From a bacterium (lineage in GTDB: Bacteria; Cyanobacteriota; Vampirovibrionia; Gastranaerophilales; Gastranaerophilaceae), in assembly GCA_017541465.1 (NCBI GenBank), contig JAFXYZ010000066.1, positions 1-57,864 of the forward strand: a stretch of DNA of 57,864 bases. The letters are read 5' to 3'. Positions 2,896 to 19,980 of this stretch are shown piece after piece. How positions within the stretch are numbered: the stretch's first letter is position 1; every line of letters begins with the position of its first letter. The notes under the pieces are model-generated. The model had not been told where the DNA came from, ran no database searches, and was given only the letters and a program-made list of their open reading frames with translations. Made by a program: the position numbers and the translations under genes.

Positions 2896-3600
2896 ATGAA
2901 AAAAACTTTAATAATATCACTTTTGGGCGCACTGATGATTTTCACTCAGGTGACGGCGCAGGCTGCAATAAAAGACAGTAAAATCAACGCAAATGCGGCA
3001 ATAAAGAAGCTCGAAGCCGGAACAATTCTCAAGGTAAGACTTCAGGAGCCCATCGGAACAGCCTACCTCAAAACTGGTGCGCCGTTTACCGTAACCGTTA
3101 TGGAGGATATAAAAGAAGGCAAAAAGATTGTCGTACCTCAGGGAACTTTAATCAGAGGCTCTCTCAGCGATGTTTCACCCGCAAAGAGATTCAGCAAGGG
3201 TGCAGCTTTGGGTATGTATTTTGACCACATCGTAAGCCCAAGCGGAAAGCAGATACCTATTGATATTGCACTTTGCAACAACAAATATCTGACCTATGAC
3301 GGAAAATTGAGCACAAAAACGAACTACGGAACGGCTATCAGACAAAATGCGCAAACAGCAAAGAATATCATCACAAAATCAACGACCTGGTCGTGGGAAA
3401 AGGGCGATGATTTATTCAACGGCTTCCCGAAATACATCTTTGCGCCTGTCACCGCTATTTTTGCAACACCCGTTGCAGGTCTTTATTTCGTTGGCGATGC
3501 AGTTGTTGATATGATTAAAAAAGGTGATGAAATTGCTATCAACCAGGGCGAAATTTTGTATGTATATCTCGTAAACTCGGTTGATTTACCTGTTTACTAG
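2896..3600 (+). CDS. Secreted protein of unknown function (shares a domain with the protein at 17353-18516)
   Basis: This 234-residue protein starts with a clear signal peptide (MKKTLIISLLGALMIFTQVTAQA). The start is fixed by AAGGAG 7 bases upstream of ATG at 2896. The mature part has a beta-rich segment reading GTLIRGSLSDVSPAKR, then YFDHIVSPSGKQIPID. The same pattern recurs in the 387-residue protein at 17353-18516 (GTIAHGTIKQISSPKR, then FDYLVTPDGRQIPIE), so the two are paralogues. The C-terminal third has a hydrophobic stretch (IFAPVTAIFATPVAGLYFVG). I do not recognise a function. An envelope role is likely from the signal peptide. It follows the YhaM-like gene by 10 bases and precedes the isocitrate dehydrogenase by 11. 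Confidence 0.75.
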   Translation: MKKTLIISLLGALMIFTQVTAQAAIKDSKINANAAIKKLEAGTILKVRLQEPIGTAYLKTGAPFTVTVMEDIKEGKKIVVPQGTLIRGSLSDVSPAKRFSKGAALGMYFDHIVSPSGKQIPIDIALCNNKYLTYDGKLSTKTNYGTAIRQNAQTAKNIITKSTTWSWEKGDDLFNGFPKYIFAPVTAIFATPVAGLYFVGDAVVDMIKKGDEIAINQGEILYVYLVNSVDLPVY

Positions 3601-19626: not shown

Positions 19627-19655
19627 TTGACCGCAAGCTATTTAGATGTTATCTT
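19627..19655 (+). promoter_or_regulatory. Promoter of the tRNA-Met transcription unit
   Basis: TTGACC at 19627-19632 and TATCTT at 19650-19655 are separated by exactly 17 bases, a good sigma-70-type promoter. The start would fall near 19662, so the two foldback elements at 19680-19908 would be co-transcribed with the tRNA. Confidence 0.65.
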
Positions 19656-19679
19656 AAAAGCATAGAAATAAGATAATAA

Positions 19680-19908
19680 GGGCTTGTGGCACTCTGCCGA
19701 GAAAAACAATTGATAATTGTTTTTCGAGAGGTAGGTAGCGGGACGCTACCGCAAGCCGAAAGAATTAAAACTGAATAATAAGGGCTTGTGGCACTCTGCC
19801 GAGAAAAACAATTGATAATTGTTTTTCGAGAGGGGTAGCGCAGACAAAAAATCGAAGATTTTTTACTCTGAGTTACCGCAAGCCGAAAGAATTAAAACTG
19901 AATAATAA
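19680..19908 (+). repeat. Two tandem foldback elements derived from the 5' half of tRNA-Met
   Basis: Unit 1 (19680-19781) and unit 2 (19782-19908) both begin GGGCTTGTGGC, identical to the first 11 bases of the tRNA at 19909. Both end CCGCAAGCC followed by GAAAGAATTAAAACTGAATA. GGCTTGTGG pairs with CCGCAAGCC to form an outer stem. Inside each is a long AT hairpin (GAAAAACAATT..AATTGTTTTTC) flanked by CTCTGCCGA and CGAGAG. Unit 2 then has GGGTAGCGCAGA, almost the tRNA D-arm (CGGTAGCGCAGA), and later CTCTGAGTTACCGC, an inverted copy of the same arm. Unit 1 has GGTAGCG-GGA-CGCTACC. They look like palindromised tRNA 5' halves invaded by a hairpin module. Confidence 0.75.
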
Positions 19909-19980
19909 GGGCTTGTGGCGCAGCGGTAGCGCAGAGGACTCATAATCCTTTGGTCGTAGGTTCGAATCCTACCGGGCCCA
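19909..19980 (+). tRNA. tRNA-Met (anticodon CAT)
   Basis: The full cloverleaf is readable: acceptor GGGCTTG with CGGGCCC, D-arm GCGC..GCGC, anticodon stem GAGGA/TCCTT with loop CTCATAA, T-arm GTAGG-TTCGAAT-CCTAC and discriminator A. CCA is not encoded. The acceptor pairs at the first position (G-C), so it is not an initiator. It is elongator Met, or possibly the tRNA-Ile whose C34 is modified to lysidine. It is the third of three sequences that begin GGGCTTGTGGC. Confidence 0.93.

Follow-up and report, generated by a model that had tools for sequence, protein, structure and literature searches.

Bacteria contain short palindromic inserts that encode no gene, among them Rickettsia palindromic elements (RPEs) and similar repeats; RPEs carry a fixed palindrome. 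IS200/IS605 elements are single-strand transposons whose hairpins are recognized as single strands. Two further systems resemble the units described here: REP sequences with their RAYT (Y1_Tnp) genes, which share with them a short hairpin of strand-specific structure, and tRNA-targeting integrative elements (tyrosine-integrase islands and prophages), which likewise insert in a tRNA gene, duplicate part of the tRNA, and restore an intact gene. The mitochondrial mobile hairpin elements, i.e., fungal double-hairpin elements, yeast GC clusters, and sponge RHEs, are alike in being tens of nucleotides long, hairpin-forming, and dispersed over genic and intergenic sites, with conserved stems, variable loops, and an unsettled mechanism (PMC2800124).

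We analyzed a stretch of 57,864 nt from a Gastranaerophilaceae bacterium (the window) together with related genomes. Unlike the mitochondrial hairpin elements (PMC2800124), the units found here are bacterial, lie largely at tRNA genes and 5' of GNA, and come with a duplication of the cognate target and often an inverted target copy; as in other mobile hairpins, dispersed copies with a conserved, covarying stem were found. In contrast to RPEs, each unit has arms matching its own tRNA, and next to the insert an intact tRNA remains. A direct repeat of the tRNA end beside the intact tRNA, as integrase-type insertion produces, is also present. However, the units are geneless and ~70-250 bp long, which leaves no space for an integrase gene in the insert, their breakpoints are set by GNA rather than by one attachment core, and they contain an inverted target copy and form tandem arrays. 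Single-strand hairpin recognition by IS200/IS605 serves as the model for the mechanism proposed below, although the units have no fixed left tetranucleotide, their constant part is the right-side GNA, and no TnpA/TnpB was found alongside.

RAYT genes are present in the window's genome and its relatives. A REP/RAYT origin was rejected: the core has no GTAG foot, no ACTCTGCC core lies beside the RAYT ORFs that were read, and Y1_Tnp occurs in 22 of 60 genomes, is absent from the core-rich genomes G009 and G042, and is not followed by core number. Instead, hairpins of the GTAGGTTGGG..CCCAAC type, which form their own REP-like family, border the RAYT genes of this clade (loci L237, L238, and L253).

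Two hairpin-bearing units before tRNA-Met

Two consecutive units (unit 1, 19680-19781; unit 2, 19782-19908) are directly followed by an intact tRNA-Met gene. Each contains, in this order, nucleotides 1-11 of tRNA-Met, a 41-nt module, a D-arm copy, the inverted D-arm plus acceptor strand, and a 24-nt leader. The features of the locus are as follows:

19627-19655, + strand: putative sigma70-like promoter match TTGACC-17-TATCTT upstream of the array (9/12 of consensus, about the chance number)
19680-19690, + strand: copy 1 of tRNA-Met nt 1-11, the left target duplication (exact match)
19691-19731, + strand: hairpin module 1, core type I (ACTCTGCCGA-stem-loop-GAGAGG; sequence, fold, covariance-model family)
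19734-19757, + strand: D-arm copy GGTAGCG, triloop GGA, inverted D-arm CGCTACC, inverted acceptor strand GCAAGCC (sequence, RNA and DNA folds)
19758-19781, + strand: leader copy GAAAGAATTAAAACTGAATAATAA, resembling a diverged TTGAMAATTNAATA motif (exact repeat of 19885-19908; motif statistics)
19782-19792, + strand: copy 2 of tRNA-Met nt 1-11 (exact match)
19793-19833, + strand: hairpin module 2, core type I, equal to module 1 (sequence)
19834-19884, + strand: D-arm copy GGTAGCGCAGA, hairpin AAAAAATC-GAA-GATTTTTT, inverted D-arm CTCTGAGTTACCGC, inverted acceptor AAGCC (sequence, folds)
19885-19908, + strand: leader copy next to the intact tRNA (exact repeat)
19909-19980, + strand: intact tRNA-Met (CAT) (ARAGORN; Rfam RF00005, 71.3 bits)

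The initial annotation of this locus had described two elements that begin with the exact first 11 bases of tRNA-Met, contain sense and inverted copies of its D-arm, and bear a hairpin module at the D-loop position. All of these were recovered. The 11-nt sequence GGGCTTGTGGC recurs exactly at 19680-19690 and 19782-19792, and an identical module, ACTCTGCCGAGAAAAACAATTGATAATTGTTTTTCGAGAGG, follows both copies. Sense D-arm copies lie at 19734-19740 (unit 1) and 19834-19844 (unit 2), and inverted copies at 19744-19757 and 19866-19884, respectively. An exact 46-nt repeat with GGGCTTGTGGC at its end has copies at 19747 and 19874. Unit 2 is the tRNA 5' half with the module in place of CGCAGC (GTGG-module-GGTAGCGCAGA); in the intact tRNA-Met, the insertion-type site falls between C19919 and G19920 (TGGC^GCAGC). 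That every unit is preceded by the same sequence holds in part: the leader is repeated before unit 2 and before the tRNA, but unit 1 is preceded by GATAATAAGGG and not by AATAATAAGGG.

Both units fold far more stably than shuffled sequences as RNA (z of -4.7 for unit 1 and -4.8 for unit 2), and DNA folding gave z of -6.5 and -7.0. The TTGACC-17-TATCTT site, previously called a good promoter, is indeed present, but it matches 9/12 of the sigma70 consensus and is one of four such matches in the region, against a chance expectation of 2.3 +/- 1.7; since an AT-rich region yields a similar number by chance, it is weak evidence. In an Rfam search of the window, the tRNA alone reached the gathering score, and beyond tRNA no credible family appeared for four unit-bearing loci with E up to 5.

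A family of hairpin modules in Gastranaerophilales

The strict pattern CACTCTGCCGA-N12-42-GAGAGG was detected in 53 of the 99 relatives and reaches 61 copies in one genome, and the reversed-pattern control gave 0. Core-rich genomes include G046, G042, and G005, and G008, G031, and G045 are core-free. With a covariance model of the core, 141 of the 240 class genomes searched gave a match, and the copy numbers per genome from this search are to be read as "at least". All but one of the matching genomes listed belong to the window's family, and the exception falls in another family of that order; genomes listed from other orders of the class gave zero matches. Among the matches listed from a scan of 84,980 species genomes, the true-hairpin cases are nearly all Gastranaerophilales, Melainabacteria, or gut MAGs, and at least one carries another label, namely locus L139 (Muribaculaceae), which has a true hairpin and may be misbinned. 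Pattern matches under other phylum labels are mostly without a hairpin, look like chance, and were discarded. Phage carriage was also rejected, as one alone of 28 pattern-matching viral contigs has the hairpin. In that IMG/VR contig (L087), a genuine module sits at 3448-3494, just past an ORF end; the contig could come from a phage, or else from host DNA of this order that was misclassified. We found no report of such elements in Melainabacteria in the open literature searched, and they apparently represent a large and undescribed family of tiny hairpin elements in tRNA genes.

In the window's genome, a module with tRNA-Pro arms also precedes tRNA-Pro(GGG), and further cases precede tRNA-Pro(CGG) and tRNA-Val(GAC). 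The variable parts of its two Pro cores differ by a single base, yet one core sits at C^GCA and the other at G^GTA, which are separate places in the D-loop. Within a genome, cores from different tRNAs have a similarity of 0.571, compared with 0.506 under permutation of the genome labels (maximum over 300 permutations, 0.572), and the nearest-neighbour core comes from the same genome in 9 of 41 cases (22%, versus 3% permuted).

The core stem covaries, with 22 double-changed cells versus 5.7 in shuffles (0/500). Because its mismatches are G.T far more often than A.C (27 versus 2), folding can be assigned to the strand that reads ACTCTGCC..GAGAGG, whether in RNA or in single-stranded DNA.

Insertion sites and unit anatomy

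Among 223 distinct extracted cores, 126 lie ≤400 nt from a tRNA gene, on either tRNA strand, and with few exceptions the 3' side of the core points toward the tRNA. Sense units are found upstream of the 5' end of tRNA-Pro, Leu, Met, Lys, Val, and Ile, and opposite-strand units beyond the 3' end of tRNA-Gln, Leu(CAA), Phe, and Met, where the terminator is duplicated. The module also occurs inside some non-tRNA repeats. With the target written as U-a-c-b, a full unit reads U-a-core-b-loop-b'c'a'-leader-U'a and is followed by the intact tRNA. The replaced segment c measures 0-9 nt, the conserved module 40-46 nt across the family, and the direct target duplications ~8 to 60 nt, or longer if an earlier unit is included.

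Checked across the genomes of relatives, as the initial annotation had proposed, the arms follow the adjacent tRNA, and GGGCTTGTGGC arms with no tRNA nearby were not encountered. The direct copy is the sequence of the neighbouring tRNA, and the inverted arm matches the same tRNA in many units, not all: the cognate antisense score averages 8.5 versus 6.3 for the median non-cognate tRNA, with 63 units above and 17 below that median, and the arm is undetectable in most tRNA-Val and Pro(TGG) units. The arm often extends across c without a gap, as GTCTACCGATTCCGC does in tRNA-Leu units, which implies that it was copied from an uninterrupted target. Its mismatches with the tRNA are G.T and A.C in similar numbers (18 versus 16), and this lack of G.T preference gives no sign of pairing selection, as expected of a decaying copy. 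Judging from these sequences, the inverted arm looks like a decaying fold-back copy of the target.

GNA occupies positions +1 to +3 at 28 of 28 tRNA-type/position sites, usually as C^GNA, against a background of 6.9% (0.069) in the same tRNAs. The nominal binomial P is about 4e-33, with homologous D-loops and 1-base differences in tRNA start counted separately; since D-loops are homologous and some sites differ by one base in the called tRNA start, the effective number of independent sites is perhaps ten rather than 28. Even with about ten, the rule is very unlikely to arise by chance. A dispersed repeat in one genome (G046) occurs in an empty version, GAGTGG-CGTAT-TAGACAG, and in a filled version, GAGTGG-core-TAGACAG, again at C^GTA. 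In that genome, loci L043-L062 belong to a repeat a few hundred bases long (GTCCGAGAAA...GGAGAACTGCTTTA) that is dispersed in many copies, with one or two nested hairpin modules. GNA also forms 18 of 22 triloops capping the second hairpin of units, an excess that arises partly because tRNA D-arms provide GCA.

These turning points at small GNA hairpins, the zig-zag order of sense, inverted, and sense copies, and the continuity of the inverted arm across the site in several units are also what repeated template switching at hairpin-prone tRNA sequence would leave, in which case the module would be a by-product of replication error and no mobile element need exist. Random switching is not expected to yield a module of 40-46 nt order-wide, identical cores at unlinked loci, or so strict a GNA rule, and we regard this explanation as quite unlikely.

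The right end of sense insertions is A/T-rich, and the right-end motif is missing from antisense ones. TTGAMAATTNAATA is rare in these genomes; its exact matches in ten genomes are far above the reversed control and are concentrated before element-bearing tRNAs in sense orientation only. It was thus dismissed as a universal right end: its absence from antisense insertions makes it a sense-side feature. An A/T-rich 3' end, direct duplications varying from about 8 to 60 nt, and a core that folds strand-specifically would suit a non-autonomous, SINE-like bacterial retroelement inserted by target-primed reverse transcription. Such an origin is nevertheless distinctly improbable, given that antisense insertions are without the right-end motif and that reverse-transcriptase genes occur in 27 of 60 family genomes, with no RVT_1 match in the core-rich G005 and G019.

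Independently of the core, we scanned the flanks of tRNA genes for copies (≥11 nt) of the gene's own ends, the 5' end on the upstream side and the 3' end on the downstream side. Such copies were found at 9 of 33 tRNAs in the window's genome, 13 of 32 in G042, and 7 of 24 in G084, a genome of another family of the class without the type I core; in the same three genomes, non-cognate flanks gave 1 match in 4992 comparisons. There were none at the 25 tRNAs of G006, which belongs to the window's family, none at 30 tRNAs of Komagataeibacter (non-cognate, 0 of 1668), and none at 26 and 23 tRNAs of two genomes of the same phylum but outside the class. Own-end copies therefore accompany 27-41% of sampled tRNAs in three of four genomes of the class, versus 0 of 79 in three genomes outside it. 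As G084 is positive without the core and G006 is negative, the unit anatomy is wider than the type I core but patchy. The same data bear on an assembly or binning artefact. The Gastranaerophilales genomes were assembled from metagenomes, contig breaks cut off many units, and arrays are often at contig ends; on the other hand, dozens of independent assemblies agree, many units are contig-internal, and an artefact would not explain the specificity for the cognate tRNA, so that this reading is hardly credible.

Units with other hairpins were found at tRNA-Val(TAC) in the window's genome and at tRNA-Asp, Tyr, and Trp in G005. At the Val(TAC) locus (L258, G000:C52:77200-77634), a partial 5'-end copy is followed by a CCCGAAAAGCGTTGGCGCTTTTC hairpin and TTGAAAATTGAATA, i.e., the same anatomy with another core. 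A second core type, AAGG(A)CTCC..GGAGG, takes the same position in tRNA-derived units at L016, L197, L200, and L259. At L285, L292, L294, and L298 (G000) and L324 and L331 (G042), copies of the tRNA 3' end after the tRNA are joined to longer dispersed repeats, several with GTCTTG; these seem to be further cases of this kind of insertion, here involving a larger repeat.

Probable hairpin DNA insertion versus a possible leader RNA

The initial annotation had offered two readings, the first being tRNA decoys or processing elements. Here, a functional leader RNA would be co-transcribed with the tRNA as a decoy or processing/maturation element, and its a/a' stem would tie up the surplus 5' strand of the tRNA, leaving the real tRNA free to fold. 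In its favour, sense units follow a promoter-like site and precede the tRNA, their three-way-junction fold is strong, the core stem covaries with G.T preferred over A.C, and TTGAMAATTNAATA is a leader motif of element-bearing tRNAs. However, such units are also found in antisense orientation at tRNA 3' ends, where the terminator is duplicated, and in non-tRNA repeats, the antisense arm has no G.U bias, and presence is patchy between related genomes. Left-arm cis pairing was rejected as a selected RNA structure, being barely higher than in shuffles (4.8 versus 4.3). The module's occurrence outside tRNA leaders and the lack of pairing selection on the antisense arm disfavour this reading, and we consider it unlikely. 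The second, a hairpin element that captured and palindromized a tRNA 5' end, comes close, except that tRNA-Met is not carried along: what the units have in common is the hairpin, whereas their tRNA copy comes from the local host tRNA.

Insertion of DNA fits best, because both tRNA strands are hit, terminators and leaders are duplicated, and non-tRNA sites are used. The units are thus probably, though far from certainly, tandem copies of a miniature non-autonomous hairpin DNA element that inserts in tRNA genes with target duplication; its movement is inferred. In such an insertion, the module would be recognized as a folded single strand by a putative nuclease or transposase, which would cut at C^GNA and attach the hairpin where the tRNA fragment has its 3' end. 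The growing strand may then fold back at a small GNA-capped hairpin and copy the intact target, giving the inverted arm, and repair across a staggered break would produce the long target duplication. Later unequal recombination between duplications could expand or contract the array. At the loci themselves, the intact tRNA gene adjoins the insert, and the far side carries a duplicate of the tRNA end together with variable upstream (or terminator) DNA. Some units have no detectable inverted arm, so fold-back copying does not apply throughout. Insertion replaces 0-9 nt instead of making a clean join, and this is atypical of transposition. Neither an autonomous partner nor a transposase was found, and RAYT and reverse-transcriptase genes do not track core number.

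It is possible, and we suggest it tentatively, that these elements form a new class of mobile DNA, in which a geneless 40-nt hairpin is inserted at C^GNA in tRNA genes, the tRNA is rebuilt, and the target is copied inverted by the proposed machinery. If so, each copy would bear the sequence of its current host gene and not of its origin. The mechanism is testable through its site rule, its folded-strand signature, and the arm copied from the target, and an enzyme placing hairpins at C^GNA, should one exist, could interest a wider field. Annotation and assembly of these genomes may be misled by the additional tRNA fragments. In two Gastranaerophilales genomes and one genome of another family of the class, 27-41% of sampled tRNA genes lie near a partial own-end copy that has an insertion behind it, and this frequency implies that essential genes are often hit by something that leaves an intact copy.
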